From Talinum fruticosum (lineage: Eukaryota > Streptophyta > Magnoliopsida > Caryophyllales > Talinaceae), in contig JAITYX010000058.1 in NCBI GenBank assembly GCA_021018815.1, positions 1,939,001-2,003,000 of the forward strand: DNA of 64,000 bases, written 5' to 3'. Below, piece after piece: positions 18,389 through 52,751 of the stretch (within the stretch, counting starts at the first letter, position 1; each line of letters begins with the position of its first letter). The position numbers were made by a program, and so were the translations under genes. The notes below the pieces were generated by a model. That model made no database searches, was not told where the DNA came from, and saw only the letters and a program-made list of their open reading frames with translations.

Positions 18389-18393
18389 CTGGT
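18389..18393. other. target site duplication of element D, left copy
   Basis: CTGGT directly precedes the D LTR; the same five bases follow its other end at 27092-27096. Five bases is the usual Ty1/copia duplication. This pair proves D is a single intact insertion into the aORF of C. Confidence 0.9.
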
Positions 18394-19983: not shown

Positions 19984-20451
19984 ATCTCCCCTTTTTGATG
20001 AAAGACATTTCATACTTAGACAGAAACTTTGTTAGTGAAAAAGATATGAGTCCGAATAGTTGCGCATGAAGAGAGTTGAGTAAAACGTACTTAGTGTATC
20101 GGAGCATAAAGTAGAATATGCTTAACAATGAAATAATGTTAACTCGTAAAGATTTTAAACACATAAATCATTAAAGAGAAAGCATTAATTCATTAAACTT
20201 AAAAAGAATACATAGATTGAGAGGGAAAACTCCCCTAAACAAGACCACAAGTTTTTCTAACTCTATTTCTCCCCTTGCCTTTCAAAGAAAAAAAGAACAA
20301 CAAAAAGAAGGGAAGAAAAGAACAATTAGTACAACTCGTAAACAGGAAATAACTACTAACCCAAGTATCACCGAATGAACCGAGCTAATGGTTATTAAAG
20401 GTGAAAACACATAGCACATAATCATACAAGATTCACAATGATAACACACAA

Positions 20452-21900
20452 TTATGCATTTAACATACCAAGCTCATTCCGAATAAAACTAAACTGATCT
20501 TCACCAAGAGGCTTAGTAAAGATATCAGCTAATTGAAGGTTAGTAGGAATGAACTCAAGTTCAATATCGCCTTTTTCAGAATGGTCTCGTAAGAAGTGAT
20601 ATCTCGACCTCGATATGCTTTGTCTTCGAGTGTTGGACTGGATTCTTGGTGATGTTGATTGCACTCGATTGTCACACTTGATTGGAACCGATTTAAAGGA
20701 CAGTCCAAGATCTTTCAAGTGTTACTTTATCCATAGAATCCGAGCGCAACGAGCTCCAGACTGCAATACACTTAGCTTCAGCAGTTGATAGAGCTACCGA
20801 GTTCCGCTTGTTTGAGTGCCAAGATATTAGGGATTGACCCAAAAATTGGCAAGCTCCGGAAGTGCTCTTTCTATCAACTTTGTATCCAACATAGTCAGCA
20901 TCCGAGTATCCAAGTGAGAGTTAGTTCTGAGTCTCTTGAGTACCATAGACCTAGATTCTAAGTCCCCGCAAGATATTTAAAAATTCTCTTCACCTGCAGG
21001 TGAGATGTGATTCTTTTGGATTAACTTGAAATCTTGCGCATAAGCAAACACTCGAACATTATATCAGGCCGGCTGGAAGTAAGATATAGCAAAGATCCAA
21101 TCATACCTCGATAGAGTTTCGATCTATTGCTTTACCTTTCTCGTCCGAGTCGAGCTTTATACTCGCTCGCTCATAGGTGTAGATGCGTGTTTTGCATCTT
21201 GAAGTTTGTATTTCTTCAGCAGCTCCTTGGTATACTTGGATTGATGGACATAGATCCCATCATTGTCTTGTTTGATTTGTAAACCAAGGAAGAAATTGAG
21301 TTCTCCCATCATACTCATTTGGAATTCTTGACTCATCAACTCGAAAATTCTCGGCACGTAAATTCATTAGTAGCACCGAAGATAATATCATCAACATAGA
21401 TTTGAACAATAAGGAAATCTTTCCCTTGGTCTTTATGAAGAGAATCTTGTCAATATGACCTCTTTTGAAATCATTTTGAACCAAGAAATTGCTCAGTCTT
21501 TCATACCAAGCTCGTGGAGCTTGTTTAAGACCATAGAGAGCCTTTTGAAGTTTGAAAACATGATTTGGAAATTCCGAGTTTTCAAAACCAGGAGGCTGCT
21601 TGACATAGACTTCTTCTTCAATAAAGCCATTGAGAAAAGCACACTTAACATCCATTTGATATAATTTAATATGCATGCAGGATGCAAATTCCAACAATAT
21701 TCTAATAGCTTCGATTTTGGCGACAGGTGCAAAGGTTTCCCCACAATCAATTCCTTCTTCTTGATTGTAACCTTGAGCCACAAGTCTAGCCTTATTTCGA
21801 CTACCACTCCACCCTCATCCAGTTTGTTTTTGAAAACCCATTTGGTTCCTATGACTGGGTGGTCGAAGGTCGGTTAGTCGAGTCCAAACTTGGTTTCTTT
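20452..21900 (-). pseudogene. pol of D: reverse transcriptase and RNase H
   Basis: Minus strand, several frames. The RT part (21900-21157) begins with [20 protein letters not shown], followed by YQMDVKCAFLNG, QPPGFE, LYGLKQAPRAWYERL and, near 21380-21405, the catalytic YVDD motif; then a LNFFLGLQIKQD segment. The RNase H part (20718-20452) carries IKCDN, RYHFLRDH and ends LADIFTKPL...FIRNELGM, which is typical of the SIRE/Maximus lineage. The polymerase copies the element RNA and RNase H removes the template. Frameshifts at about 21300, 21480 and 20620 mean the copy as written is not functional, although some shifts fall at CCGAG words that may be sequencing errors. Confidence 0.85.
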
Positions 21901-22096
21901 CAAATTGATTGAGTTCCTCTTGCATGGCTTCTACCCATTCAGGTTCATTAAGGGCCTCTAGTGCATTTCTGGGTTCGGTTAATGAAATGAATGCAGTGAA
22001 TGCACATAGATTTTGAAGAGAGGAATGAGTTTTTACCCCACTATTGATATCGAAATTATATTTTCTAGTGGATGACTAGAAGTAAACTTGAACGCT

Positions 22097-23180
22097 TTAC
22101 CGCTTCTCCGATTCACGAGATTTGTGGGCTGAACCGCTTGATCTTCGAAGCTTGTTCCGAGTGATCTTCTTCATTGGCTTGTTCGTTCGAGTGAGCTCTT
22201 GAATTGTCTCATTCCGAGTCACTTCGTTCCGAGTGACCTCATTTTGAGCCGGTTGAGTCCGAGTCTTTGTGGGTTCAGCTTCGTCATCATCTCTACTGAA
22301 CTTCAATTCCGAGTATGAAGACTCGCTTGGTTTCTCCTGTTCAAGCTCATCAAACATAACGTGGATGCTCTCTTCCACTTTGTTAGTTCTCTTATTAAAA
22401 ATACGATAAGCTTTGCTGTGAGAAGAATAACCTAGAAAAATACCTTCATCCGACCGAGCATCAAACATGGTCAGGTGATCCTTACCATTGTTGTGAACGT
22501 AGCACTTACATCCGAATGGTCTGAAATAGGAAATATTTGGCTTCTTCCCTTTGTAGAGCTCATAAGGAGTTTTCTTCCGAATGGGTCCGATGAGGCATCT
22601 ATACGAGTATAGTTGGTCTGTGTTGATCGCCTCAGCCTAGAAATAGTAAGGCAAGTTGTGCTCAATCATCATTGTCCTTGCTATTTCTTCAAGGGTTCTG
22701 TTCTTTCTCTCCACTACTCCATTCTGTTGAGGAGTTCAGGTGCTGAGAAGTTGTGAGAGATTCCATTTTTGTCACAAAACTCGAGAATTCCGAGTAGTCG
22801 AACTCCCTTCCATGGTCGGTTCGAATCCTCCGGATCCGAGTCCGAGACTCAACTTGGATTTTTCTACAGAGCTTGCTGAACTCCTTGAAAGCTTCATTTT
22901 TGTGCTTAAGAAAACACACCCAGGTAAATCGTGAATAATCATCAATAATAACAAATATGTAAGATTTACCTCCAAGGCTCTTAACAGGATTTCACCACAT
23001 AAGTCCATATGCAGTAGCTCAAGCACTTTGGATGTGGAAACTGTCTTCGAGGATTTAAATGAAGATCCGACTTGTTTCCCTCGGGTGCATGCTTCACAAA
23101 CTTTATCTTTCTCAAAGACACAGTTAGGTAAGCCTCTAACCGGATCATGAGATGCCAACTTTTTGATAGTATGCATGCCG
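22097..23180 (-). pseudogene. pol of D: integrase
   Basis: On the minus strand the GAG-pre-integrase zinc-binding segment (about 23176-23060; CEAC and the upstream His residues) is followed by a HMDLCGE entry into the rve core, and RTDHGREFDYSEF (about 22800) supplies the second catalytic Asp of the DDE triad. The later part (22468-22330) has the FLGYSSHSKAYR.FNKRT segment seen in copia integrase C-termini. Several frameshifts break it. It would insert the cDNA into the genome. The region from 21900 to 22097 is the integrase-RT linker. Confidence 0.8.
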
Positions 23181-23216
23181 ATATGGCCTAATCTACGATG
23201 CCAAGTCCATGAGTCA

Positions 23217-23624
23217 TCATGAAGAGATGCTTTTAAGCAAGATAAATTCGACTCGGGTCATAAAGAGGAATGATATAAGTATTACCCGATCTCTTACCCG
23301 AAAGCTTGATCTCTTTGGTAGTGACATCGAAATGTAGCAGTTGGTCCGAGTGAATCTTACCTCTTGACCTTTATCACATAGTTGAGAGATGCTGAGCAGA
23401 TTATACTTTAATCCTTTGACAAGGTAGACTGGATCGACCGGATTGCTTCCTTTTCCAATCTTGCCAATCCCTACTATCTTGCCTTTGCTGTCATCTCCAA
23501 ATGTGACCTTTCCTCCTTTATGTTTTTCCAACTCGGAAAAGAGTCCCGCATCTCCCGACATGTAGCGTGGACATCCACCGTCAAGGTATCGGTGTCCTTT
23601 TGATCTCTTCCGAGTGACCTGCAA
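23217..23624 (-). pseudogene. protease region of D, with DGG in place of D-S/T-G
   Basis: On the minus strand the reading YLDGGCPRYMSGDAGLFSEL is the copia protease motif, usually W.LDSGCSRHM. It is followed by VTFGDDSKGKIVGIGKIG and LKYNLLSISQLCDKGQ, the standard lead-in to the integrase domain. The catalytic D-S/T-G is DGG here and also in C, and DNG in G. The frame remains open for 135 codons. Confidence 0.8.
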
Positions 23625-23639
23625 AATAGAGAGAATCTA

Positions 23640-25448
23640 ACCCTTCTCACTTCCTCTAACGAACCCAAGTAACATTCCTTACTCGTGGTCCTTTTATGAG
23701 GAAGAAGGTGTTTCGAACCCAAATTTGAATAACTTTGGGTTTTGTCTCGATTCTCGAGTCTTCCTCTCGGAGAACCGAGTCCGTGTCTCTTTCTTTTGAA
23801 AACCTTTCCTTTTGAAACAGGAGAAAATGGTTTCTTTTTGTAAACAGCTTCCGGGCTTAGTCCTCCCTTCGTTTTTGTGAATGGGACCATGCTCAGCTTT
23901 CCCGAACTTCACAGATCCGGAATCTTTTTAAACAGTTCCGAGTAGGAATTGGATTCCTCCTCTTTGTTGAAACCAAGACCTTCTTTTCGAAGGAGACACA
24001 TTGTGATCCTAAGAGCATGTCAAGGTTTTTCCGTCCTTGAGTAAACTTTAAAACCAGATCTTGAGACTCAATGAGCTTCCGCTTAAGTTGCTCATTTTCT
24101 TTCCCGAGTAACTCAAACTCGGCCTCATTATATTGAGCACTAGTCTTGAGTTCTCCGAGTGTGAGTCTCGGCTTTTCCAATTCATTTTTCAAAGATTTGC
24201 TCTCGAAGAAATTGATTCAAGTTGTTCTTTGAATTGAGAAGAATCGAATTGGACTTTTCTTCCAAAGTAAAAATGTACTTAGCTAAATTGACTTTGGAGA
24301 ATTTGAGGAAATAATCAATTACCTCTTGAGGATTAGTTTCCTCATTGTCTCGAGTCTCGAGTCTAACTCTCTTTCGACTTCCGAGTCGAGATTGCCATCG
24401 GACACTTTGAGTCGTCCGAGTCCTCGTCATCTTCCGATGAGTCCTCATCGCTTCATGTTGCCATCATGGCCTTCTTCTTCTTTCTGTCCCTTTTTCTTTT
24501 CGGACAATCTTTGACTATGTGGTCTTTGCTGCCACACTCAAAACATCCAGAATTCTTAGATAAAGATAACTTTGAGGGTGAAGAGTACTTACCTTTTCTC
24601 GTCCCTCTTGTCTTTCTTGTAGAATTCTTCCTTTGGCCTTTTATCCCATCTTTTGTGCTTCATTATTCTCTTGAAGCCTCTTGCAATGAGTGCCATGGGA
24701 TCGTCCTTTGAGTCGAAGAGCTCAGATTTGCTTCTTTGGATTCCGAGGCTTTTAGTGCTATGTTCCTTTTGGTACTGCCTTCAACATCCTCCTCTTCTAG
24801 ATGGATTTCGTGAGTGAGAAACTTTCCGATGAGCTCGTCCGGCTTTAAGAGTGAGAGGTTCCGAGCCTCCTCTATGGCAGTCACCTTGGGACCCCATCTT
24901 ATCTTGGGTAGACTTCGAGTATCTTTCTGCACATTTCCTCGTGAGAAATCTACTTACCTAGTGATTTGAGATTGTTGGTAATCTCAAGAAATTGAATGAA
25001 CATCTCGAGTGATGTTTTCTTCGGCTCCATCTTAAATAGCTCGTATTTATGAAGATACTCGGATGATCTTTGGTTGTCCGACCTGGCTAGTCCTTTCGTA
25101 AGTGTTGACAAGTGTGTCCCACACTTCTTTTGCTAAGTCGCAGGCAAACACCCGATTGTATTCTTCTAAGTCGATGGCGCACATCGGAATGTTCATTGCC
25201 TTGAAGTTCTTCCTAAACTTCTCGCTTCGCCAGAGTAAATTCCGCCTTTGTCTTGGGAATGATTCTGAATTCCTCTCGTCTTCATTGGAATGTAGTTTCC
25301 TTGTCGTATGATTTCCCATACATCTTCATCATGATCCATGAGGAAACATTCCATAAGTTTCTTCCAAGTGCCCGAAGTTTGATCCTTTGAATTTTGGTGG
25401 TCTGCTGGAAGATCTTCCTTCGTCGAACTCTCCGTTGTTCCGAGCCAT
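23640..25448 (-). pseudogene. gag of D (UBN2 domain, zinc knuckle, coiled coil)
   Basis: The minus-strand start is placed at the ATG at 25446-25448, 60 bases inside the LTR, which reads MARNNGEF. The UBN2 capsid-like domain lies at about 25320-24790 (including WGPKVTAIEEARNLS). The CCHC knuckle CFECGSKDHIVKDC lies at about 24500-24555. It is followed by a charged predicted coiled coil (24192-23990) containing ELLGKENEQLKRKLIESQDL. Gag would form the virus-like particle and bind the RNA. There are frameshifts at about 25350, 25050, 24660 and 24190. Confidence 0.8.
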
Positions 25449-25494
25449 TTGATCTTTAGACCTTTGGATGGTTAGATCCTTTCTGAAAGGCTAG

Positions 25495-25505
25495 GCTCGA
25501 TACCA
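25495..25505 (-). other. primer binding site of D (initiator tRNA-Met type)
   Basis: The minus strand reads TGGTATCGAGC two bases after the LTR end. The usual plant site is TGGTATCAGAGC, so one A is missing next to a CGAG word. The same site in C is 36946-36956. Confidence 0.85.
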
Positions 25506-25507
25506 AT

Positions 25508-27091
25508 TGAAGGTTTGCTCGGGAGAGTCCGAGTCACCCTAGAGAGGGGTGAATAGGGTGATGGAGGATTTTCTTAGAAATTCAAACTCCTTTTGCCAAA
25601 TACGATACGTGAGTTAGTTCTGAGTCAAAACAGCAGTCGAAAAGTATGGACTCGAAGTGCTGCTTAGAGTAAAGTGGCAAATTAAACAAAAGCTTTGAGA
25701 TGGTCCGAGTCTAGAATGAACTCGGAAAATAAACACTTAGAGATTATGTGGAAACCCTCCCGGGACAGAAAACCACGGACCGTGCTAATCCAAGCACCAC
25801 GTCAAATCCACTATTTTGAGTCCACAAAATACCGTGAACCGACTAAACCTGAGTTGCTCCCTTAGACAACTCTTTACAAGTTTTCTTAGACTCGGAAATT
25901 CCCTTATCTCGATCTAGTACTTCCTAGCTGAGATAACCCTTACAGCTAGGGACAACTAAGCTGAGTTAACCCTTACAGCTTAGTCAAGGGACCTTACAGA
26001 GAGCGTAAGAAAGTGTTTGTAACTAAGTACAAGACCTTACAACTCGAAAGTAATGAGTTACAGAGTAGGAGCTGCAAGTAGAAGATTGAGAATGAATACA
26101 AAGACTTCGCTCAAGTATGTGTATTAACAATAAGTTCGACAATCTTCAAGTCTTGTGAGGTGGCTTCTATTTATAAATGACCAGGCAGAGTAGCCATTAT
26201 CTTTATCTCGCTGACCGAAAGTTCTTTGTGACCGTTGATGAAGCTTTCCGAGTCACTCGGAAAGTATCCATTGTAATGTGAACGTTGGACAACGGTTTAA
26301 ACTCTCTTGGAAGTCCCAAAACCATCGACGGTGTCTTGAAAGATAAGGTGGAAACCACCGTTAAGCTTAGCGTTCCAGTTTTCCAGATTCGGAAACAGAT
26401 AGCCCCGACACAATCTTCTCGGGACTCGGAGCAGAGAAGGTGAAAAGCCATGTCTGCTGGTGATTTGACATTTTGAAGCCAGGTTACTTTTGTACTTTGA
26501 AAAGTATATCCTCGTTTGAATAACCTACAAAAGTAAATCAATTTTGGTCCTCAAAGTATAAAATACTTTGGTCCAAGATTAGACATAAATAATAAAATAA
26601 TTTTGATAATTAAACAACTAATTATCTGAGTTAGAAACGAGATGGAATTTTCTAAGTCTAAAAACCATGTAGCTCAAAATTCTATCCGACTTAGTCTAAG
26701 AGAGGAATGAAGTTATATGACGAATATCGAGTGAAATGACTTGATATAGACTAAGCATGAAATAGACTAAAATCACTAACTCCAATAGAATAGGACATAT
26801 ATCATGAAGTCAGTCCCGAGCGGAAAGCTAGTCTAATCAGCATGCGATAAATCGAGTGATGAGGGACTCGGAACCGAGTGAGATAAGCATATCGGTTTTC
26901 GAGTCACTCAAGGATAAGCAAGAAATACATGAAGTAAAAGCTATATCACTTAGAGAAGATACCATATAGCTTAGAAAAGTTTCTAAGATGTAGAGAATGC
27001 CTTAGAATCAAAACTCTATAAGTACGAGATTGTTATACCTAATTCCTTTAATATGACTCGAAAGGTATTGAGCAGATGTCTCGAGTCTTCA
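25508..27091 (-). repeat. 5' LTR of element D
   Basis: The 1584-base LTR runs from TGAAGGTTTG at 25508 to GTCTTCA at 27091 and is bounded by the PBS and the CTGGT duplication. The minus-strand TATA box is at 26167-26175; the perfect palindrome CCGAGTCACTCGG is at 26248-26260, with CCGTTG/CAACGG boxes nearby. Confidence 0.9.
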
Positions 27092-27096: not shown

Positions 27097-28381
27097 CCTT
27101 CTTCTTCCTTCTCCCATTCTTCCTTCTCCTTAGAGGGGCTGCCTTAGTCGTAGTCTCTTCTTCTTCTTCTTCTTCTTCCGCCCCTCCGAAACGGGATTTG
27201 GCGGGGCTCGAGGACTCCTCGGATGTGTCCGAGCCGACCGGGTCCTGAACGGCCTTGGAGCGCCTTTCTTGGAGGAGCTCAATCAACTCCCTCTGCTCCT
27301 TGACGAGTACCTTCATATCAAGAAGCACGTCTTGCTGCTCTTGGATTTGGGACTAAGCAGTTTTTGGTTGATGGTCATTGATAGAAGGACAGTCTTGAAT
27401 GACCGGAGCGTGTCCTTAAATTTGGTGGACACAGAGGAGATCTTGTCCATTATTGCAGTGGACACAAGTAGAAGAAAGGACATGAGAAACACCTGAAGTG
27501 GAGGCACCACTAGGTGGAGGAGGTAGAGAGAGAGGAGGTTGAGTTTGAGTATGAGGCGGAGAAGGTTGCCTCGGCTTCGAGTTATGGACCCGGACACCCG
27601 GTTGGGCCTCCTAGTATCCATACCAAAGAAGTTCTTTTCGCCAATGACTATGGCAGCATCGAAACTACATTAGGATCCGAGGGAGGGGAACTTTGAATTG
27701 CTTAAATATAAAGGTGATAAGAGCCCCAAAAGGAAGAGGGGTAGATTTCTTAGTCTAAGCCGGCACAGCGCCCATCCGCTCGATAATAGCTTGAAAGAGG
27801 CCTACTTTGTACCCCTCGAGGATGTCAAAGAGAGCTTTGAGATGCTTAGAGTTTGGGTTCTCTTTGCTCGAATGCTTGAGAGAAGAAGCTTCTTATCTGC
27901 AGAAAACACGAAGGCGGACTTCTAACTTCATCCGAGTCATCGAGAAGTTTTGCGTGACTCGAGGATTTCTTTTGTGTATTTACGAAAGAATTCATCAACA
28001 ACCTCATTGAAAGGTATAGGGTTGCTATTGAGGAAAAGAGAAGAGACTTTGAATAAACGGTGGAGGAGAGAGACGTTGATACGAACGAGCAACATCTTGA
28101 ACTCTAGAGGTGAGGATACTCTAAGAGTTATAAAGGTTTGAGTAAAACTCGAAACGAGGTTCGGGTAGATGAACTCGCTGAAACAGAAGAAATTGTAAAC
28201 CCCTGTGGTTTTGATATTATTCAACCTCAAAAACTTGGTGGTTGGGAAGAATTTGTCATCCAACGTTAGGTGTTGGGTGACGACGATTTTAGAGGGGTTG
28301 GAAGGACCCTCTTAGCTTTTAGTACGGGGTTTCTTAGTTGCGAGAACCAAGAAAGTCCGGGTGAAAGCCTCATTTCAGCAT
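27097..28381 (-). pseudogene. aORF of element C, N-terminal and coiled-coil part
   Basis: The minus-strand start is at the ATG at 28379-28381, aligned with the start in E (40310). The conserved domain (28263-27700) includes LDDKFFPTTKFLRLNNIKTTGVYNF, a F.YP.LV...FY segment, a V..NVSLLHRLFKVSSLFLN segment and NPIPFNEVVDEFF. After a Pro-rich linker comes a coiled coil (about 27400-27240) with KVLVKEQRELIELLQERRSK, then an acidic stretch (27170-27140, Glu run) and a basic tail (RRRKNGRRKKK). D interrupts it at 27096. The domain resembles the 'putative plant transposon protein' family. There is no signal peptide or membrane segment. Several frameshifts are present. Confidence 0.65.
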
Positions 28382-28652
28382 ATTTGGATGTGGACAAGAG
28401 AGAAGATGAACATTGAGAGAGAGAGAGAAAAGATAGCTCAAAGAGAGCGATAGAGCTGAGAAAGTAGAGAGAAAAAAGAAAATGAAAAAGTAGAGAGAGA
28501 GCTCTTAGAACTTTCTATGCTTACTTGAGATAATTTTTGAGTTGCTTGAGAGAGAAGATTTGCTCTTCAAAAACAGTGAACTTGCTCGTGAGGTTGTATG
28601 CGAGAGTGAGAGCGAGTAGAGAGTAAAGTAGCGAAATGAATGAAAAAAGGTG

Positions 28653-28661
28653 CTATTTATA
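28653..28661 (-). promoter_or_regulatory. TATA box upstream of the aORF in C
   Basis: The minus strand reads TATAAATAG followed by CACC, about 270 bases before the aORF start and followed by a CT-rich leader (28440-28400). Upstream on the minus strand (about 28785-28735) are two boxes, TAGCCGTTGG and TAACCGTTGG, about 32 bases apart. The same layout is present in E, F and G. Confidence 0.6.
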
Positions 28662-29067
28662 GAGAAAGAATTGTCCTTTAGTATTCATTCTGACCCAACT
28701 CTCCAATAGTCGCCTCGGACTCGGTGTGGCCGTTCCGCTCTCCAACGGTTAGAATTCCAGTGTTTGTCCGCCAACGGCTAGTTTTCCGATCGATAAGCGC
28801 GAGAGAGAGAGAGAGAAAAGAGAGATTTTAAAATAAATTTCTGAAATTCTCCCATAATCTAGAGATGACTTCGAAGTTTGATGTCCATTTTTCTCAAAAG
28901 CTGAGTTTGACTTAGTAAGTTTTCCGAGTGACTCGAAACCGTAGGCAAGCGATAACTCATAGCTCGAGTATCACTGGGTCAACTAAACTAATTGTTATTA
29001 AAGCATAGAAAAGAAAACATTTAACACATAATCATGCAAATCAATCTTCACTTAGAAAAGCACATAA

Positions 29068-30211: not shown

Positions 30212-31077
30212 TGTAAGACCCCGAAATTTCAGGTGTTTGCTTGCTAGTAAATTAAATTATTAAAAGTTAAGTGAAAATTCGAAATTATTAAATTAAGTGA
30301 ATTATTAATTTTTCCGAGTCGGAATTAGAAGTCGAGAACCAAAACCGAGCATGGGTTAGCTTAATTGGGCTTATTAAAGTTGAAGTTGGGCCCAATTAAA
30401 AGAAAAAGAAAGGAAAATGGAAAAGGGATGGCTGGCATTAAGGAGGAGCTAGCAAGGGATTAAGCAAAGAGAGAGAGGGGGTCCAATTGGAATTAAGCAG
30501 CAAGCCCAATTGTGTGTAATTAGGAGAAGAGGAGAGGGACGGGGGGCTGAGACATTAGAAGGGAAAGAAGCGAAGTAGAAGTAGGGAAAGGAAAAGAACG
30601 GGAAAGCGAGCAAGGGAAACAAGAGGGGGATCGGCCAAGGCGGAACGAGCAAGAAAGGGAGAGAGCGCGAGAGCCCGTGGCCCGTGGCCGCCTGAATGGC
30701 GAGGACGCCGCCGCCGGTGAGCGAAGGGAGAGCGAGAGCTCGGGAGGCCGAGCAGAGCGGAAGAAGAAAGGGGAACGAAAGAACGCGAAGCGGAGGAAAG
30801 CGAGCGGAGGACGAGAGCCGAGTGCCGAGACAGAGATTAAGAGGAGCACGGCGTGTCCGCACGGCCGGCGAGCGCAAAGAGGGAGCCGGCGAGACCGAAC
30901 AGAACCGGGGCCAGGGGTTTGAGAACCCGAAAACAACAGAGCAGAGGGAGACAGCGAGAGTTTGAGCAAGGTGGAAGAAGGGGAGCCGAGAGGAAGAAAG
31001 GGAAGGAGGAAACAGAAATTAAAACCCAATTCGAAACCCTTCCAAAACTGAATTCTTAGAACCTCTAAGAATCTAAG

Positions 31078-31083
31078 GTGAGT
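31078..31083 (+). other. splice-donor-like site in T2
   Basis: CTAAG/GTGAGT is an almost perfect plant donor, located where the GC-rich tract stops and the AT-rich interval begins. Equivalent GT sites exist in T1 (15528), T3 (59017), T4 (62917), T5 (about 45455) and T6 (9883). Confidence 0.5.
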
Positions 31084-32016
31084 GATCTGAATTCATCCTC
31101 CAAAATAAAATGAATTAGGTGGATTGAATATGAATTCAAAGCATGAAATTGGAAACCCTAGGTTTAATTGAAGAAGTTGAAGGCCTAAATTCACTAAACT
31201 AGCAACTCATGAATTAAAGAGCATGTTGTGATTATGTGATGCCTAGTTCTGAATTTGTGATGTTTAAGCATTATTGAGCATGATTATTGAGAATTGGATG
31301 AGAATAGCTTGAATAGGTTTAGTGAGAAAAATCAGAAAATTGAGTTAATCATTTAGTGCAGATTTTTCGATGAATAAAGCCTGCTGTCTGCATTATTGTG
31401 CTGTCATGTGTAGCCCAAAATTCCTGTAATTTTTACTGCAGCTTCCTGATGATTTATGAGAATTTCATGTAAAATTTCGTATGCATTGGATGAGTAGATT
31501 GGGAGATATGCAATTTTAAGCGAAAATGTCATGTTTTAAGCAAAATCGCATCTAAATGAGTAACTGAATTAAGAATTGAGAATTAAGAAGTTATGTGGCT
31601 AGATTAAAAGATATATGTCGATTAAGGGAAGTTATAGAACCATAAACCACTTATACGCGATAATACGCGATCATGAAAGCGATGAGTTCATTGATTAGGA
31701 ATCCTAGTTGGCATGTTCATGTGATTATGTGTTTATCCTGAATTACATCGATGATAAATGACATAAGCATGCGTATGTGAAATGAATTGATTGTGCTTGA
31801 GTTGAAACTTGCTTATGTGAATTGCTTGTATTGAAGAAGTTACGCATGAACGTGCTAAGCATGAATTATATGAATTAAGTATTTCTTATGTATAAGTAAT
31901 AAGAAGATAAGAAATATAAAGAACTAAAGAAGGGAGAAAGGATTGTGTTATTGATCTAAGACCCCACGAATTAAAGAACCCTCTGAAGCTATGGCCATAG
32001 AAGTGTCTGTCAACCC

Positions 32017-32162
32017 GAAGCCACGAATTATTTTGCTTCTACGAATTATTGACATTATGCGTCCTTCGGGGAAGGGAGGCTGCCTCGAGGCCATGAATTA
32101 TTTTGCCTCGAGGCCATGAATTATTCACCTCCGTGAACCGAGCCCACGAATTATTTTGGCTC
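32017..32162 (+). repeat. array of four small hairpins with constant loop in T2
   Basis: Four units have a nearly constant loop (CAYGAATTATTTT) but different, self-complementary arms: GAAGC/GCTTC (32017-32039), CTCGAGGC/GCCTCGAG (32084-32112), GAGG/CCTC (32110-32131) and GAGCC/GGCTC (32140-32162). The perfect palindrome CTATGGCCATAG lies just before (about 31989-32000). T5 and T3 carry analogous arrays with other loop words. Confidence 0.75.
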
Positions 32163-33125
32163 TAAGAACTGGGTCTCTAGAGCAGTGCATAAATCTTCTT
32201 TCCATTCGAAACTAAGAAGACTTAAAAGAATTATGATATGAAGAATCGAATGATCATGCATGATGAACAAGAAAGAACCAATGATTTATGAAGTGCATGA
32301 TTGAACTCAAGAAAAAGAATAAGAAGAAGAACGAATCCTGTTTTCATCGAAATGAATGCCATAAGAACTAAGATGTGATTTACGTGACGAATGATTTGCA
32401 TGAGGAATGATTATATGATGTACTTACGTAGAAAGACGAATGATGCATGTTTAATTGAATTCATGAATAAGTGATGTCATTATGATTCTCGGCAAGTTGG
32501 TAAGTTTAGAATCTTGCATGTCCGAAGCATGTATGATCCGAATCGCATGTTATGAATGAATTGAGAACTTACGTGTTTGTTAATGAATTAATGTGCAAAG
32601 TGAAACTCGGGGTTGGGTTTGGATTATTCACTGGGCTAGTGAGCTCATGATATCACCAACATTTCAGGTACGAAGTTAAGACCGGCAGGAGTTGCCTTTG
32701 GCTTTTGGAAATAGCGGACGAATAGGAGATGCCGGACTTCATCGCTTGTTTTTCGTCTTTTGTTTGTAAAGATGTTGTAAAGACTGTTGTATGTGAACTT
32801 AAGTTTTGATTATGAATGTAAAATCCCTATGTGAATACTCCGAGCGTGTGGCTCGTTGAGTTTTGTTGTGTTTCTCCGAGCGTGTGGCTCGTTGAGTTTA
32901 AGATTGTATTTCGTGCGGGGTTAGGGCTTTAAGCCTATGGGTTTAGCCAGTTTATAGAGGAAACTCTGCCGAAATTTCCGGAAAAACCTTTGAAAACCTA
33001 GAATTACGCTTCCGTCAATCCAAGAAAGGGTTATTAACCCCAAGTTGAGATCTTAAGCGGTCTTAGGGGTTCCTCCCGGGAACCCCGGCATGTAATACTC
33101 CTAGGGTGGGTCTAGGGGTGTTACA

Positions 33126-34740
33126 TCTGCTCAACATAGATTTTCTCTTCGATAAAACCATTGAGAAAAGCACACTGAACATCCATTTGATATAACTTGA
33201 TATCCATGCTAGATGCAAATGCGAATAGAATTCTAATGGCTTCAATTCGGCAATAGGTGCAAAGGTTTCCCCACAATCAATCCCTTCTTCCTGATTGTAA
33301 CCTTGAGCCACAAGTCTAGCTTTGTTTCGACTACCAATCCACCTTCATCCAGTTTGTTCTTGAAAACCCACTTGGTTCCTATGACTGGGTGGTCGGAAGG
33401 TCGTTTGGTCGGATTCCAGACTTGGTTTCTTTCGAATTGATTGAGTTCCCCTTGCATGGCCTCTACCCATTTAGGTTCATTTAGGGCCTCTAGTGCATTT
33501 TTAGGTTCGAGTTAATGAAATGAATGCAGTGAATGCACATAAGTTCTGAAGAGAGCAATGAGTTTTTACCCCACTGTTGATATCGAGATAATATGTTTTC
33601 TAATGGATGACTAGAAGCATACTTGAATGCTCTACCTGTTCTCCGATTCACCGGATCTGTAGGCTGAATTGCTTGATCTTCGAAGCTTGTTCCGAGTGAA
33701 CTTGTTCATCAGATAGTCCTTCATCATTTTGAGTTGGTTCTTGAGTTGTCTCATTCTAAGTGACTTTGTTACGAGTGACTTTATTCTGAGCTGGTTGGGT
33801 TTCGTTCTTGTTAGGCTCATGTTCATCATGACCATCATTTTTGGCTGAGCTTTAGGTCCGAGAATGATGATTCACTTGGTTTTTCCTATTCAAGCTCATC
33901 AAACATAACGTGGATGCTTTCTTCCACTTTGTTAGTTCTCTTATTGAAAACGCGATAAGCTTTACTATGAGATGAATAACCCGGAAAAATACCTTCATCT
34001 GACCGAGCATCAAACTTGGTCAGGCGATCCTTACCATTGTTGTGAACAAAACACTTACATGCAAAGGGTTTGAAGTATGAAATATTGGGTTTCTTCCCTT
34101 TGTAGAGTTCGTACGGTTTTTCTTCGAGAATGGGTCCGATGAGGCATCTGTTCAAGGTGTAGTTGGCTGTGTTGATTGCCTTAGCCCAGAAATAGCAGGG
34201 TAGATTATGTTCAATCATCATTATCCTAGCTATTTCTTCAAGAGTTCTGTTCTTTCTCTCCACTACTCCATTCTGTTGACGAGTTTTTGGTGCTGAGAAG
34301 TTGTGGGAGATGCCATTCTTGTCACAAAACTCTGCAAATTCCGAGTAATCGAACTCCCTTCCATGGTCAGTTCGAATTCTTTGAATCCGAGTTCCGAGAC
34401 TCAACTTGGATTTTCCTACAGAGTTTGCTTGAACTCTTTGAATGCTTCATTTTTGTGCTTAAGAAAACACACCCAGGTAAATTGTGAGTAATCATCAACA
34501 ATAACAAGTACATATGATTTACCTCCAAGACTCTTAATAGGGATTTCTCCGCATAAGTCCATATGTAGCATTTCAAGCACCTTGGATGTGGAAACTGTCT
34601 TCGAGAGATTTGAAAGATGATCTGACTTGTTTACCTTTTGTGCAAGCTTCACGGATCTTATCTTTCTTAAAAGCACAATTGGGCAATCCTCTAACTAAAC
34701 CATGAGATGCCAATTTCTTAATAGTAAGCATGCTAACATG
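33126..34740 (-). pseudogene. pol of C, RT start and integrase
   Basis: The minus-strand integrase core occupies 34676-33886. It has VDDYSQFTWV (first catalytic Asp), RTDHGREFDYSEF (second Asp), then QQNGVVERKNRTLEE with the catalytic Glu, followed by KPFACKCFVHNN and SSHSKAYRVFNKRT of the C-terminus. This stretch keeps a single open frame for 172 codons, so the DDE triad is intact in C. The RT start [18 protein letters not shown] is at 33311-33250, and T2 interrupts RT at 33125. Linker lies between 33460 and 33880. Confidence 0.82.
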
Positions 34741-36958: not shown

Positions 36959-38341
36959 TGAAGGTTTGCTCTTGGAGAGTATAAATCACCCTAAAGGGGG
37001 TGAATAGGGTGATGAGGAAACTAGCTTGAAAAATTAAAACAGATATGAATATGAGTTGTGTGAGAGGCAAGGATAAACTCGGAAAAGTGCTAACTCGGAA
37101 TTCGGTGAAGAGTGAAGAAACAGATTAAGCGGAACTTTGAAATAGTTTGAGTCTAAAGTGCACTCAGAAAAATAATTACTCGAAGTTACGTGGAAACCCT
37201 CCCGGGCGAGAAAACCACGGACCGTGCTAATCCAAGCACGAAGTCAAATCCACTATTTTGAGTCCACAAAATACAGTAGACCGACACAACCCGAGTTGGT
37301 CCCTTAGACAACTCCTTATAAGTTTTCCTAGACTCGAAATTACCTTATCCGATCTAGTACTTCCGAACCGAGATCACCCTTAGAGTTAGGGACAAGCGAG
37401 CTGAGTTAACCCTTATAGCTCGGTCAAGGGACTTCACTTAGAGAGTAAGAAAGAGAGTGTTTGTAATTGAGTACAAGACCTTACAACTCAAAAAATTATT
37501 AAATACGAAATTGGAGTTGTAAGTAGAAGATTGAGAATGAATACAATGACTTTTGCTCAAGTATGTGTATTAACAGTAGATTCGGCAATCTTCATGTCTT
37601 GAAAGTTGGCTTCTATTTATATATGACCAAGCAGCCTAGCCGTTGTGTCCATCTTCGACTGAAGTCCTTTGTGACCGTTGTAAAAGATTTTCCGAGTCAC
37701 TCGGAAAATATCCGTTGAGATATGAACGTTGAGCAACGGTTCTTGACTCCTTTGGAAGTCCCAAAACCACTTGGTAGTTTCTTTATAAAATAAGGTGGAA
37801 ACCACCGTTGAGCTTGGTGTTGAAGATTTCCAATTTTGGAAACAGACAATCCTGACACATTGTCTAAGGCTAGGTCAAAGGTGGAAAAAGCCTTTCTCGC
37901 TGGTGATTTGACGTTTTGAAGCTGATTACTTTTGCGGTTCAAAATTAGGATAGCCTTGTTTGAATAATGTACAAAAGTAAATCAATTTGGTTCTCAAAGT
38001 ATAAAATACTTTGGTCCAAGATTAGACACGAGATAATAATATAATTAAATGACTAATTATCCGAGTCGAAAAGGAATGAAAAATTCGAGTCTAATATCCA
38101 TGATACGCAAAATTCCATCCGAGTTAGTCTAGAAGATAATCAAGTCAAAATAGAAGATCGAGGGTAATCGGACTTGATCTAGACAAAGCAAAGTTCAAAC
38201 TAAATAATGCTGACTTAGTCGAGTATAACTCCTGTACCATGAAGTTAGACCTTAGTTTATGTGTGTGAATACGAGTGTTTGAACATGCGATATACCTAAG
38301 TGTTGAGTGACTCGGAACATGCGATATAGTCCGAGTCTTCA
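36959..38341 (-). repeat. 5' LTR of element C
   Basis: This 1383-base LTR is shorter than the others and lies between the PBS and copia RT sequence of E on the opposite strand. It ends CCGAGTCTTCA at 38341. The perfect palindrome CCGAGTCACTCGG lies near 37690. The TATA-like word is TATATAAATAG (37613-37621 region). It resembles the D LTRs more than the other LTR of C. Confidence 0.85.
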
Positions 38342-39650: not shown

Positions 39651-40048
39651 ATGTGCTTTTCGAGTGGAATTATTTTGCATTTTTATGTGTTAAATGTCTC
39701 ATTTTTATGCTTTAATAATAATTAGTTTAGTTGATCTTGTGATACTGAGCTATGAGTTATTACTTGTTTGTAGTTTCGAGTCACTCGGAAACTTTACTCG
39801 AGTCGGACTCGGATTTTGAGAAAAATGGTCATCAAACTTCGAAATCATCTCTAGATCGGTGGAGAATTTCAGAAATTTCTTTTAAAATATCTCCTTTTCT
39901 CTCTATCTATCGTGCGCATCAATCGAGAAGTAGTTGTTGGGAGATAAGCACTGGAATTCTAATCGTTAGAGAGCGGAATAGTCACACCGGTCCGAGGTGA
40001 TCGTTGGAGAGCCGGCTCGGAACGAACACCGAAGGAAAATTCTTTCTC

Positions 40049-40057
40049 TATAAATAG
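40049..40057 (+). promoter_or_regulatory. TATA box upstream of the aORF in E
   Basis: TATAAATAG followed by CATCC, 253 bases before the aORF ATG. It is followed by CT-rich leader sequence (about 40095-40280). CCGTTGG-type boxes, partly mutated in this copy (TCGTTAG at about 39963, TCGTTGG at about 40001), lie upstream, and the near-palindrome TTCGAGTCACTCGGAA is at about 39775-39790. Confidence 0.6.
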
Positions 40058-40309
40058 CATCCTTTTTCCTTCATTTCGCTACTTTACTCGCTACATACTC
40101 TCTCTCTCGCTTACTACAACTCAAGGAAGTTCACTGTTTTCAAGAAACGAACCAACTCTCAAGCTAAGTAAAGGACACCTCAAGTAAGCATCAATTGCTC
40201 TCAGCTCTCTTTCTACTCTTTCATTCTTTTTTCTACTCTCTACCTTTCTATCTCTTCGAGCTATCTCTCTCTCTCTCAAAGTTCATCTTCTCTCTTTTCT
40301 CATTAAAAC

Positions 40310-41806
40310 ATGCCGAAAAGAGGTTCCCACTGGACTTTCTTGGTTCCGCAACCAAGAAACCTAGAATAAAAAGCCAAGAAGGTCCTTCCAACCCCTCTAA
40401 AATCATTGTCAACCAACACTTGAAGTTGGATGACAAGTTCTTTCCAACCACTAAGTTTTCGTGGTTAAACAACATAAAAACCACAGGAGTTTATAATTTT
40501 CTCTACTTCAGCGAGTTCATCTACCCGGAACTCGTTTTAGAGTTTTACTCCAACCTCTCCACCTCCGAGGGTATACTCACCTCCAGAGTTCAAGACGTTG
40601 TTGTCCAACTCAACGTCTCTCTTCTCCACCGCCTTTTCAAAGTATCTTCTCTTTTCCTTAATAGCAACCCTATACCTTTCAACGAGGTTGCCGATGTATT
40701 CTTTGAGAGGTTTGCCAAACAATTTCCCGAGTCACGTAAAAACTTCTATGTGACTCAACTAAAGTCGAAGCCCGACTTCTATGTTTCCTGTTGATGAGAA
40801 CCTTCTTCTCTCAGCACTCAAGCAAAGAGAACCCCAACTCTAAGCATCTCAAAGAACTTTTTGATATCCTTGAGGGCGACGAAGTAGACCTCTTCCCAGC
40901 CATAATCGAGCGGATGGCCGCTGTGCCAGCTCGGACTCGGTATAAGAAATCCACCCCACTTCCTTTCGAGGCTCTTCTCACCTTCATCTTTAAGCAATTA
41001 AAAGTTCCTCTCCCCCAGATCCTAATGCGGTTTCGAAGTCTGTCATTGTTGTTGACGAAAAGAACTCATTGGGTATGGATACTAAGAGACCCAACCAAGG
41101 GTCTGGGTCCATAGCTCATAGCCGAGGCCACCTTCTCCGCCTCGGACTTGGACACAGAACTCCTCTCTCTCTACCTCCTCCACCTGGTGGTGCCTCCAAC
41201 TTAGGTGTTTCGAGGTCCTCTCTTCTGCCTTGTCCATTGCCATAATGGACAAGATTTCCTCGGTGTCCACTCGAACTCAAGGACACCCTCCGGTTATTCA
41301 AGACTGTCCTCCAGTCTATGACTATCAATCAAAAGACTTCTCAATCTCAAATCGGAGAGCAGCAAAATGTGCTTCTTGAGCTGAAGGCCCTCGTCAAGGA
41401 GCAGAAGAAGATGATCGAGCTCCTCCAAGAAAGGCGCTCAAAGGTTGCTCATGATCGACTCGGACACATATGAGGAATCCTCGAGCACAGCCAAATCCTC
41501 CTCTCGGAGGAGAGGAAGAAGAAGAAAAGAAGAGGAGCCTGCGGCTGAGGCAGCTCCATCGGAAGACCCTACCGACAAAGGTCGGTTAGTAACCGTCCAG
41601 CCCTAGCAAGCACCTCCCTCGGTTGAGTTCCAAGAAGATGAACCTCTGGACGATCCGGTTCCGGGTCGGACCACTCGGAGCTGAGCCCATCCCGGAGATC
41701 CCAGTGCTGCCCCCGCCTCGATCGTCAACATCATCCCGCTCTTACCAGCGAAGGTGCACTACTCGGTCCTCCACCTGGACTCCGACTGCTCTATCTCCTT
41801 CTTAAT
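40310..41806 (+). pseudogene. additional ORF (aORF) of element E, plant-transposon-protein-like with coiled coil
   Basis: The start ATG (MPKRG...) at 40310 is shared with F (MPKRGS) and G (MPKHGS). The main domain (about 40420-40790) reads LDDKFFPTTKFSWLNNI, then YPELVLEFYSNL, VVVQLNVSLLHRLFKVSSLF, NPIPFNEVADVFF and continues at 40791-41090 with a FDILEGDEVDLFPAIIERM segment. It is followed by a Ser/Pro-rich linker, a coiled coil (about 41365-41440, VKEQKKMIELLQERR), an acidic/Ser stretch, a basic cluster and a Pro-rich end. The arrangement resembles the 'putative plant transposon protein' domain family (PF20167-like), not an envelope: no signal peptide or membrane span is visible. At least four frameshifts are present. 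It is in the sense orientation between pol and the 3' LTR. Its function is unknown. Confidence 0.65.
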
Positions 41807-42308: not shown

Positions 42309-43822
42309 TGAAGAGTCGGACTTTGCATGTATGACATTCTAAGTACTATCAAGGAATTAGGTACAAACTTCATATCTTGTAGGTTCCGATTTCAAGTCAT
42401 TCTAAGTGCTATAGAAACTTTTACGAGTGTTAGAGAAACTAATACATAAGTTTTTCATTTGTTTCTAACTAACTAAAAAGGCATACTCTTGCTCATCTTT
42501 TCACATTTGTAGTTACGAGTCACTCGGACAACACTCTGATTTATCGCATGTTCAAACACTCGCTCCGACACGCTTAAACATAGGTCCGACTTCATATTCC
42601 AAGATCGGGTGAATTACAGCATTAGTTCATCTCTTCTAGTCGGCTTGTTTTGTTTGAACTTTATCTGTCTAGATCAAGTATTCTTACTTTGATATTCTTT
42701 ATCTAACTTAATCTTTCTCCAAATAGACTCGAGATGGAATTTGAGTATAATGAATATTAGACTTAGAAAATTCTATTCTTTTCGACTCAAATAATTATTC
42801 ACTTTATTATCTTAATTAAATTATTATCCGTGTCTAATCATAGACTAAAGTATTTTGTACTTTAAGAACCAAAACTTGATTTACTTTTGTAGGTTATCAA
42901 AACGAGGCTATCCTACTTTTGAACTACAAAATTAACCAGCTTCTAGATGTCAAATCGCCAGCGAGACATGGCTTTTTCTACTTCGACAAAGTTCCACAAA
43001 CCGTGTCGGGGTTGTCTGTTTCCAAAACTGAAAATCTTCAATGCTAAGCTTAATGGTGGTTTCCACATTACTTTTCGGACACCACCAGTGGATTGGGACA
43101 TCTTAAGGAGTCAAGAGCCATTGCACAACATTCACAACTCAACGGATCTTTTTGAACGACTTAAAAGAATCGTTACAATGGTCACAGAGGACTTCTAATC
43201 AAAAGCTAGTTACAATGGCTAATCTGCTTGGTCATCTATAAATAGAAGCCAACTCTCAAGACTTGAAGATTGTTGGAACCATTGTCAATACACATACTCA
43301 AGCAAAAGTCTTTGTATTCATATTCAATCTTCTACTTACAACTCCAACTCTGTATTTAACATCTTTCCGAGTTGTAAGGTCTTGTAATAAGTCACAACTT
43401 TCACTCTTACTTTCTGAGTAAGGTCCCTTGACTGAGCTGTAAGGGTTAACTCAGCTTAGTTGTCCCTAGCTGTAAAGGTTACCTCGGTTAGGAAGTATTA
43501 GATTAGAAAAGGGAATTTATGAGTCTAGGAAAACCTTGTAAGGAATTGTCTAAGGGAGCAATTCTGGTTGAGCATGTCTACAGTATTTTGTGGATTCAAA
43601 ATAGTGGATTTGACTTGATACTTGGATTAGCACTGGCCGTGGTTTTCCGCCCCGGGAGGGTTTCCACGTAAATTCTAAGTTCATACTTTTCTAAGTTCAA
43701 TCTAGACTCGGAAAGTCTTAAAGTTTGTTTTAAACTTTAATCTTCCATTTATTGTTCAAATTTCCTCATCAGCCCATTCACCCCCTCTAGGGTGACTAAT
43801 TCTCTCCAAGAGCAAACCTTCA
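42309..43822 (+). repeat. 3' LTR of element E
   Basis: The 1514-base LTR runs from TGAAGAGTCGG at 42309 to AGCAAACCTTCA at 43822. The TATA box is at 43237-43245. It is closest to the LTR at 12025-17504, which lies in the opposite orientation; for example both share the stretch around the AACAATAAATGGAAGATTAA word near the CTTCA end. Confidence 0.88.
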
Positions 43823-44050
43823 TGGGGGTGAGCACCAATCCTCTCAGTGGAGTGTCATATGCTCTTAAATCGACAATTTCTTCACACATACCACAAATAA
43901 TAATCATTGAGAAAATAAGAATAGCATGATAATAACATAAATATTCATTAACTAAATTCTTTGCAGCCGTAAATGATTTAATCAACGTTTGGATTTTCAA
44001 GGTTGTATTGTCACCAATGCAACTCAATCAAAATCATTTCACAAACAACT

Positions 44051-44219
44051 ATTCAATTCTCTAATTGAATAAAAGCATTTTTAAACGAGTAAACCATTAT
44101 TCAATTCCCTAATTGAATAAAGGTAATTTCAATCATTAAACAATTATTCAATTCCCTAATTGAATAAAAGTATTTTCACGCATCAAATCATTATTCAACT
44201 CCCTAATTGAATAAAAGAC
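44051..44219. repeat. four-copy tandem repeat with an internal inverted repeat
   Basis: The unit is about 50 bases. Each copy contains ATTCAATTCCCTAATTGAAT or a one-base variant, in which ATTCAATT and AATTGAAT form an 8-base stem around a 4-base loop; the spacers between copies are AT-rich and more variable. Confidence 0.8.
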
Positions 44220-44353
44220 GTTCTCGAGCATCGGATCCCTGTCTAAACACTACTACCTTTTTCGTTTGGGTGACCACAACCCAAGTTTGACCTTTTCAAA
44301 TCCCAAGAACTACTAAAGTCAAGGAGGAACTCTATTACCCTTGTCGGGATAAT

Positions 44354-44475
44354 TGTTAACCAGGACCGCATCAAGTTAACAAGGAAACCCGGACCGCATC
44401 GGGAGTCCCATGGTCGAACCGCATCGACCGAGCTCCCCGTTAGTACCATACCATCAACCTTGACCGCATTAGGAA
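44354..44475. repeat. array of hairpins with constant loop in T5
   Basis: On the plus strand the word RACCGCAT recurs four times, each time between different complementary arms: GTTAAC/GTTAAC (44354-44379), CCCG/CGGG (44388-44403), GGTCG/CGACC (44412-44429) and CCT/AGG (about 44458-44473). The loop is constant and the stem changes, as in T2. Confidence 0.7.

Positions 44476-46002: not shown

Positions 46003-46004
<2 letters not shown>

Positions 46005-46067
<63 letters not shown>
46005..46067. repeat. (CT)n microsatellite in T5
   Basis: About 30 uninterrupted CT units, within the CT-rich (plus strand) tract of T5. Confidence 0.95.
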
Positions 46068-46070
<3 letters not shown>

Positions 46071-46849
46071 TGGTTTTCTTAGAGGCAACCACCATTCCTA
46101 CTTTTACACTAAACCAATTCCTAGCCTAACACTTAATTTCCCCTTTTTCTTCTTTTTTTTGTTAAGCATTATTTAGATTAACGCCAAGTAAGTAGCATAA
46201 CTGGTCTCGGGTTTTTATTTAGCTAGTCTCGGGCAGAATATTAAGAGGAAGGAATAAATATATTTTACCAATTATAGTTATGCGAACTAATAAGAATTCA
46301 CTCAAATGAATTTACGAATATGTATCCTCATGTATATTTTAGTTATTCGACCTAATTTATTTAATTAAAGTTAATTAATTAATTTAACTCGTATAACCAT
46401 CTCAAAGAAAATTATAGGTATTACAATTTTCAAGATGATACTTAGAAGCTGGGGATGAACCTTTTATTAAGATTTCCGAATTTTATTAAATCCGATCTAA
46501 AACGAATTAAGTAAAGTTTGAATGGTAATTTTATTAATTATTTTATTTTAACAATTCTTTTTAGAAGTCCTAGGATATTTTTCATAACTGAAAAACAAAG
46601 CAACCTAGAATTCTATTTCTGCTGTGAGGATGTAGGGCAAAGCTGGTGTGCAAAACACCGGTTTGGACCCAAACCTTGCCTACCGACCACTCGGTGCAAG
46701 TGGCACCCCCGGTGGTGGCCGGCGCCAGCCAAAGGCCCTGGGCCGAGGAACTCAACCTCTGCTTCGGCCTGCCTACCATATCCAGAATTCATTTTTTCTG
46801 CTCAATCAAAAACTAGTTGCGAGGCGGATTTAGAAGAAATAATCAAATG

Positions 46850-52712: not shown

Positions 52713-52748
52713 TGTGAGAGAGAAAAGACGAGAGGTTACTAGAGAAGT

Positions 52749-52751
<3 letters not shown>

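Follow-up and report, generated by a model that had tools for sequence, protein, structure and literature searches.

Rows of hairpins that repeat one loop word in LTR-type sequences of a Talinum fruticosum retrotransposon nest, with a possible role as structured RNA leaders

The window, that is, the whole stretch of 64,000 nucleotides of Talinum fruticosum DNA that was analysed, consists of decayed LTR retrotransposons nested in one another. The family of the nest is Ty1/copia, and other LTRs have been inserted into it. One Ty1/copia element (18393-27091, minus strand), delimited by self-BLAST and protein domains, has both of its LTRs, which are 94% identical. Four of the ten pieces that were given to the domain search had a match, including RVT_2 (E 2e-42, at 21263-21814 on the minus strand) and gag_pre-integrs (E 2e-16, at 22775-23257). 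The element therefore carries a reverse transcriptase of the Ty1/copia type; it also has direct terminal repeats and a tRNA-type primer site adjoining the 5' LTR. We take TTGGTATCGAGCC at 25494-25506 to be the PBS and the purine tract AAAAAGGGGAGA, which precedes the 3' LTR, to be the PPT. Plant entries are found among the named protein relatives of the element, alongside many unnamed ones (best 120 of 7994). Between pol and the 3' LTR, some copia copies have in common up to ~1.6 kb of sequence (27135-28741, 39970-41557 and 51881-52818) that finds no counterpart in the element at 18393-27091; it is possibly an env-like or additional ORF.

Three of the other insertions are of concern here. The LTR S1 (30212-33125, plus strand), recognised by its termini TGTAAGACCCC...GGGTGTTACA, is inserted in a Ty1/copia element, and a second copy of this host element retains the insertion site uninterrupted (21596-21602). 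S1 is flanked by CTGCT left and right, the right side having an additional T. The LTR S3 (58161-59963, minus strand) is bordered by the target duplication TCTTG on both sides; S3 and, with its extra T, S1 thus show the single LTR and the target-site duplication of solo LTRs. No internal region of either LTR was found in the window. The sequence S4 (43823-46425, minus strand) is LTR-like and would be an LTR as well: its 5' end, TGTAATACC, lies at 46425, and its 3' end was not found in the window. The 5' end of S4 resembles the start of a further insertion at 62015 (TGTAATAC...), and S4 has a 116-bp self-BLAST match to 62878-62991. This TGTAATAC-type insertion (62015-64000) breaks into a copia LTR close to the array region of that LTR and continues past the end of the window, where any array of its own would lie. 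These insertions may be Ty3/chromovirus sequences, a label suggested for S1 and S3 by TGTAA...TTACA ends. An earlier note on this DNA, made from the sequence alone, had described hairpin arrays in S1, S4 and S3 as copies within one LTR family. Self-BLAST ruled this out and placed them in different LTR or LTR-like insertions, since the only matches of at least 80 bases among these insertions were 32835-32984 with 14081-14222 and 62878-62991 with 45378-45493.

The array of S1, at 32017-32162 on the plus strand, is real, and its four loop copies with complementary arms, as reported in the earlier note, were recovered. The word CAYGAATTATT occurs four times in the window, against 0.14 expected by chance, and all four copies lie in this array (32022, 32092, 32115 and 32145). 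The full loop word, CAYGAATTATTTT, is present three times rather than the four stated, the fourth copy being CATGAATTATTCA; a fifth copy (TACGAATTATT, 32040) has no stem. The two outer hairpins, GAAGC-CACGAATTATTTT-GCTTC (32017-32039) and GAGCC-CACGAATTATTTT-GGCTC (32140-32162), have arms that lie flush on the loop. Between them lie GCCTCGAGGC-CATGAATTATTTT-GCCTCGAGGC (32082-32114), the arm of which is self-complementary, and GAGG-CCATGAATTATTCA-CCTC (32110-32131), which has an arm in common with it. The arms had been paired correctly, although the GCCTCGAGGC stem is longer than reported, at 10 bp. The self-complementary arm of this stem is duplicated in tandem, as an exact 23-bp repeat, and the inner 5 bp of the stem, GAGGC/GCCTC, line up with the other units.

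Three full units of 23 nt each, GAAGC-CACGAATTATTTT-GCTTC, GAGGC-CATGAATTATTTT-GCCTC and GAGCC-CACGAATTATTTT-GGCTC, align without a gap as a 13-nt loop and a 5-bp stem. Their arms are therefore not unrelated sequences but altered copies of a single 5-bp stem in which two pair changes are compensated, and the flush-arm chances for GAAGC and GAGCC are not independent. Five columns vary between the units. Four of them make two pairs that changed on both sides (A-T to G-C and G-C to C-G, with zero uncompensated changes), and the fifth is a C/T difference in the loop. All 15 cells pair, compared with 33 to 50% in slid controls. Covarying stems, as had been claimed, are thus strictly present, but they come from three units of one copy, whose covariation values are reached by 45 of 500 shuffles, and the arms are related. 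When the right arms were permuted, the arrangement with each arm beside its own partner ranked 2 of 120 (tie), and likewise 2 of 120 both with wider offsets and with wobble.

The array of S4 (44353-44473, minus strand) is likewise real. Four copies of the loop ACCGCAT between the complementary arms TTGTTAAC/GTTAACAA, CCCG/CGGG, GGTCGA/TCGACC and CCT/AGG were confirmed; the hairpins are TTGTTAAC-TTGATGCGGTCCTG-GTTAACAA (44353-44382), CCCG-ATGCGGTC-CGGG (44388-44403), GGTCGA-TGCGGT-TCGACC (44412-44429) and the weak CCT-AATGCGGTCA-AGG (44458-44473). The chance of lying flush is ~1e-3 for each of the stems CCCG/CGGG and GGTCG/CGACC. Own-partner arms ranked 1 of 24 in the permutation of right arms, 2 of 24 with a wider offset and 7 of 24 with wobble. 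That loops are constant while arms pair with their own partner therefore holds, as had been stated, for both arrays with Watson-Crick pairs (2/120 at 32 kb and 1-2/24 at 44 kb). A 47-bp tandem array of 3.7 units (44043-44217, minus strand) adjoins the 44 kb array; its units form hairpins of the type TTATTCAATT-CCCT-AATTGAATAA, the stems of which are nearly constant.

Both arrays were set against the remainder of the window by two scans. In the first, 175 groups of repeated 7-mers were compared with 400 random-arm draws, and the outcome is given for the best 60. The best groupings of GAATTAT (32 kb) and ACCGCAT (44 kb) were equalled by none of the 400 draws, whereas alternative groupings or words from the 32 kb array were equalled by a fraction of 0.0025 to 0.0475; the unrelated words TCCCTAA (a tandem repeat with constant stems) and AAATCCA (short stems) were also at 0/400 among these best 60. 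For the second scan, hairpins that have a common 6-nt loop word on different stems were given a cluster score, which was compared with 200 local dinucleotide shuffles. Three clusters stand out, at 18780-18871 (reached by 2 of 200 shuffles), 32082-32131 (3 of 200) and 44353-44429 (3 of 200), against 0.01-0.015 expected per window, and all three lie in LTR or LTR-like sequence; the fourth-best cluster was reached by 79 of the 200 shuffles. The 32 kb cluster owes its score to two arm-sharing hairpins, including the duplicated 10-bp stem, as the remaining stems are too alike for the different-stem rule of the script. A cruder scan gave 168 clusters versus 106-141 in 20 shuffles, many of them AT-rich, and 18 clusters of at least three hairpins versus 2-10. 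As a further comparison, 835,370 bases of phage-type DNA contained six clusters at score, of two hairpins each, and none was present in the 15 phage-type loci (131,952 bases) with a GC content below 0.47. A generally higher hairpin density in LTR insertions was also considered. It was not seen for hairpins of at least 12 bits (1.0-4.4 per kb in LTR insertions versus 5.2 per kb in copia sequence), and at 16 bits only S1 (1.7 per kb) and S4 (1.2 per kb) are clearly above copia sequence (0.7 per kb).

A third array, in S3 at 58845-58915, had been proposed in the earlier note and was rejected, as it does not rise above the random-arm controls: for its words, a fraction of 0.0175 to 0.2275 of the draws did equally well. 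The GCCC/GGGC hairpins are present, but inside a 23-bp tandem repeat, and the CCAC/GTGG hairpin does not contain the AATTGAT-type loop attributed to it. With two loops only, arm permutation is uninformative for this array.

The third cluster that stands out, which the earlier note had missed, belongs to the copia-family LTRs. It lies at 18739-18871 on the minus strand, with TAAGGG as the loop word. Read on the element strand, this LTR copy (A2) has AAGGG in the loops of four adjacent hairpins with four different stems: h2, ACTAAGC-TGTAAGGGTTAACTCG-GCTTAGT (18842-18871); h3, CCTAGCTG-TAAGGGTTATCT-CAGCTAGG (18810-18837); h4, CTAGATCGAGAT-AAGGGA-ATTTCGAGTCTAG (18774-18804); and h5, GAGTTG-TCTAAGGGAG-CAACTC (18739-18760). 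Corresponding array regions are found at 25670-26070 (A3, the 5' LTR of the element at 18393-27091), 12110-12501 (A1), 37110-37520 (A4), 49880-50280 (A5) and 60265-60670 (A6) on the minus strand, and at 43330-43730 (A7) and 1780-2190 (A8) on the plus strand. TAAGG occurs 3-6 times per ~200 nt in each of the eight copies, against 0.2-0.3 expected. The loop word is thus not specific to each copy, as had been supposed, but to each LTR type, being present in 8 of the 8 copia copies examined. In A3 the array is flanked by the TATA box (26167-26177) on one side and the PBS (25494-25506) on the other, and would therefore sit in the 5' leader of the genomic RNA if transcription starts as this order suggests. 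Such a leader location, typical of retroviral-type packaging signals, is indicated by the TATA and PBS positions for the copia array only.

Eight LTR copies were aligned; a ninth fragment, A9, has no array and was therefore excluded. One element supplies both A2 and A3 as its LTRs, and A5 and A6, which are 88% identical, probably also belong to a single element, so that the eight copies probably represent about six insertions. The structure examined has nine helices with 60 pairs; of its 475 base-pair cells, 92.8% pair, compared with 30.5-45.7% in slid controls, a comparison in which the unslid version is favoured since the structure was derived from one row of the alignment. The covariation score was 0.153 versus 0.127 (reached by 3 of 500 shuffles), cells with a change on both sides numbered 10 versus 5.3 (6 of 500), and the count of paired cells was reached by 12 of 500 shuffles. 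Neither the number of pairs with a both-sided change (6 of 60, versus 4.2 in shuffles; 105 of 500) nor the occurrence of further pair types (214 of 500) was notable. For example, h2 occurs as CTAAGC/GCTTAG, as CTGAGC/GCTCGG and, with a broken outer pair, as CCGAGC/GCTCGC, and h5 as GAGTTG/CAACTC and GAATTG/CAATTC. Compensatory pairing, as in a conserved structured RNA, is therefore found, with moderate support from the copia copies and weak numbers at 32 kb, where units of one copy are compared.

The loops are more conserved than the stems. Across the four copia array hairpins, 34 of 44 loop columns are invariant versus 31 of 66 stem columns (Fisher p 0.0017). Own-partner ranks in the copia copies depend on the distance allowed between word and stem. 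With the longer distance and Watson-Crick pairs, A1, A2, A3 and A7 ranked 1 of 24, A6 and A8 ranked 4, A4 ranked 6 and A5 ranked 18; with wobble, the ranks were 1 (A2, A3, A7), 2 (A6, A8), 3 (A4), 4 (A1) and 8 (A5) of 24. At a distance that is too short, they were 2 (A1), 7 (A2), 11 (A3), 11 (A4), 13 (A6), 1 (A7) and 6 (A8) of 24, and 4 of 6 for A5.

Folding energies were compared with those of shuffled sequences. The minimum free energy (MFE) of the 32 kb array had a z of -1.9 in the sense and -2.9 in the antisense orientation, and that of the 44 kb array a z of -2.2 on the minus and -0.8 on the plus strand. The fold of copia copy A2 had a z of -5.1 (0 of 100 shuffles) and, in a second computation, of -4.0, whereas the other seven copies had modest sense values of -1.2 to -2.8; greater stability than shuffled sequence was thus not evident in every homologue (eight copia copies, z -1.2 to -5.1). 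Antisense z was below sense z in 7 of the 8. Among 1598 window-strand folds, 88 had a z below -3, including the 32 kb array (-3.48, fold start 32081) and the copia array (-4.72 on the plus and -3.84 on the minus strand, start 18721). Since better folds exist elsewhere in the window, MFE alone is insufficient as proof of the arrays, and the folding check against shuffled controls that had been suggested for them fails to single them out (32 kb sense z, -1.9). The stretches of lowest z outside the arrays are 33041-33200 (plus, -6.0), 58161-58320 (minus, -6.4) and 41121-41280 (plus, -7.8), two of which lie at the 3' end of TGTAA-type LTRs. A strand polarity had appeared in a first count of G.U versus A.C departures in the copia structure, 67 to 20, which included pairs whose usual state is G.U. 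With the three such pairs and copy A3 omitted, the count over the 60-pair structure is 23 to 16, which is not significant, and RNA strand polarity is therefore not concluded.

Hairpins with a GTGTG loop occur in two different LTRs as pairs followed by TTGAG, at 32840-32900 (plus strand) and 14160-14225 (minus strand). S1 has CGAGC-GTGTG-GCTCG twice (32840-32900, plus strand); a minus-strand insertion at 12502-16453 has it once, adjoining CGGC-GTGTG-GCCG (14199-14214), in which an A-T pair has been lost from both arms together. The CGAGC and CGGC arms indicate that paired changes do happen in these LTRs.

Relatives were also looked for outside the window. Rfam gave 0 matches above the gathering score in the window. 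Of 99 stretches of viral_contigs that matched a pattern, 80 of them listed, none resembled the window in BLAST. Further patterns gave two phage-like contigs there, and by the patterns used viral_contigs contain no relative of either the 32 kb or the 44 kb array. Pattern matches in bacterial genome assemblies fell in seven apparently eukaryotic LTR scaffolds (L100, L101 and L103-L107) and in one bacterial chance match (L102). The seven, found in assemblies of several genera, are LTR-retrotransposon scaffolds, probably of plant origin, and look like contamination; L103-L107 have tandem hairpins with constant stems. Their cluster scores are at or below 13.4, short of the array level, so that by this score the feature is not universal among LTRs.

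Arrays of hairpins thus stand above chance in three LTR types, the units at 32 kb differ by compensated changes, and in the copia copies the loops are more conserved than the stems while pairing is kept. Our preferred reading, which we hold tentatively, is that the arrays act as RNA, as a structured leader that repeats one loop motif, probably for binding by Gag. Short rows of RNA hairpins in the transcribed part of the LTRs would display one loop motif several times, with the stems free to change as long as pairing is kept. The copia array would lie in the 5' leader of the genomic RNA, the loops of which would be recognised multivalently by the element's own Gag, leading to packaging and/or dimerisation of that RNA. 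The differing stems would limit mispairing between neighbouring hairpins, and the 32 kb and 44 kb arrays would serve the LTR types that carry them in the same way. Loop recognition by a protein favours exactly this combination, a repeated loop with freedom of the stem. Gag is the first choice as partner because the position of the copia array matches that of the packaging and dimerisation signals of Ty1, Ty3 and retroviruses, as far as the available texts on these describe them. Kissing loops were considered as a general mechanism and set aside on inspection of the loops: self- or mutually complementary loops were not seen, the loop words repeating in the same sense, and GTTAAC in the loop of copia h2 is the one 6-nt palindrome noticed among them. 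A broader proposal, that shared-loop arrays arose independently and generally in the LTR leaders of plants, each family repeating its own loop word on mutually different stems as a multivalent tag that lets its Gag distinguish its own RNA from the RNA of hundreds of related elements in one cell, appears distinctly unlikely.

The strongest rival, which we judge rather unlikely, is that the arrays are a mutational by-product. Tandem duplication of hairpin units would give a row with repeated loops and needs no function, and template switching would then copy one arm onto the other, so that stems change jointly and the loop is left untouched. Such a process is described for rRNA genes in the available text of PMC8794818. 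The end-to-end alignment of the 32 kb units, which resemble duplicates, fits this view, as do the location of the longest 32 kb stem and of the 58 kb units in 23-bp tandem repeats with self-complementary arms, the palindrome GTTAAC at 44 kb, the joint loss of one pair from both arms in the GTGTG hairpin at 14199-14214 relative to its neighbour, and the tandem arrays of hairpins with near-constant stems at 44043-44217 and in the contaminant LTRs. What it accommodates poorly are the 44 kb stems CCCG/CGGG and GGTCG/CGACC, the arms of which are non-palindromic and unlikely to lie flush by chance, the greater constancy of copia loops than stems between copies, and the one-sided wobble states in copia, which are expected from stepwise change under selection. 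Retention of the loop is, moreover, unexplained by neutral template switching. Chance in repeat-rich sequence, seen by a pattern-seeking reader, is very improbable, and for the clusters at 18.8, 32 and 44 kb it is already largely refuted: the many AT-rich clusters of the cruder scan, the six clusters in 835 kb of phage-type DNA and the failure of the 58 kb array against its controls speak for it, but it is at odds with three clusters where about a hundredth of one is expected, with the absence of clusters from the 15 low-GC phage-type loci, with the pairs kept in the copia copies and with the two compensated pair changes at 32 kb.

Two further alternatives grant the structures a function of another kind. 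RNA structure could serve steps on the host side rather than packaging, namely splicing, 3'-end formation, or the translation of a long leader by ribosome shunting or initiation. The copia array would indeed lie in a long leader, and words like splice donors and acceptors were seen by eye around the array in the S1 and S2/S3 LTRs; however, these candidate words are placed differently about the array in S1 and in S3, and a constant loop on different stems is not called for by any such role, which makes this quite improbable. We give hardly any credence to the constant word being a double-stranded DNA site for a protein, with the arms forming cruciforms or dyad operators in an LTR promoter or enhancer. 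The lack of strand preference, with lower antisense z in 7 of 8 copia copies and no significant G.U/A.C difference, would agree with it, but the copia array lies downstream of the TATA box. Moreover, with stems as short as 4-8 bp and loops of 10-16 nt, cruciforms are unfavourable in linear DNA.

The preferred reading, loop display to Gag, has partial parallels in known systems. As described in the available text of PMC516450, hairpins with a GACG tetraloop contribute to viral RNA packaging, and possibly dimerisation, in gamma- and alpharetroviruses. They resemble the plant arrays in that the hairpins have one common loop motif; the plant LTR arrays differ in having 3-5 units, loops of 6-16 nt and a word for each LTR type, and in being predicted from sequence only. 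According to the accessible parts of PMC5454406 and PMC11381356, packaging and dimerisation signals lie in the structured 5' ends of Ty1, Ty3 and HIV-1 RNA, with a pseudoknot and kissing-loop hairpins in the Ty1 leader (PMC5454406) and a dimerisation site in the structured 5' end of Ty3 RNA (PMC11381356). A structured 5' end of an LTR-retrotransposon RNA is thus common ground, whereas the complementary or palindromic loops of Ty1 and Ty3 contrast with the plant loops, which are copies of one word and mostly not self-complementary. The AxxA stem-loops of satellite tobacco necrosis virus 1 (PMC6475782, available text) likewise combine a repeated loop motif with variable secondary structures, although this is a capsid virus and the motif is short and degenerate. 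Data in the same text weigh against AxxA as a true packaging signal in vivo, and repeated loop motifs therefore need not work in vivo. Template-switch hairpins (PMC8794818) also show concerted stem change with the loop kept, as a mutational process in rRNA genes and not an element. A plant example is BARE, a Ty1/copia element of barley, for which the available text of PMC3735527 reports conserved dimerisation and packaging signals in the RNA; no repeated-loop hairpin array is described in that text.

Retroviral leaders with shared loop motifs are already known; a family-specific shared-loop array in plant LTRs would be a new form of the same, and no description of one was found among the matches listed for open-access literature, judged by titles and the openings of abstracts. 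Very little is known of how LTR retrotransposons in plants select their own RNA for packaging. A loop that recurs on changing stems would be a readable signal that can be searched for by computer in any genome, and it would be open to test, since loops and stems can be mutated separately. If the arrays are instead a mutational by-product, they would be a clear example from nature of template switching that maintains hairpins in the absence of selection.

The words resembling splice donors and acceptors (AAGGTGAGT, TTTCAGGTACG and TTTTAGGAAG), noticed by eye around arrays in the TGTAA-type LTRs, lie at 31070-31090, 32660-32680, 58575-58590 and 12850-12870. Their presence suggests that the leader of the TGTAA-type LTRs may be spliced.
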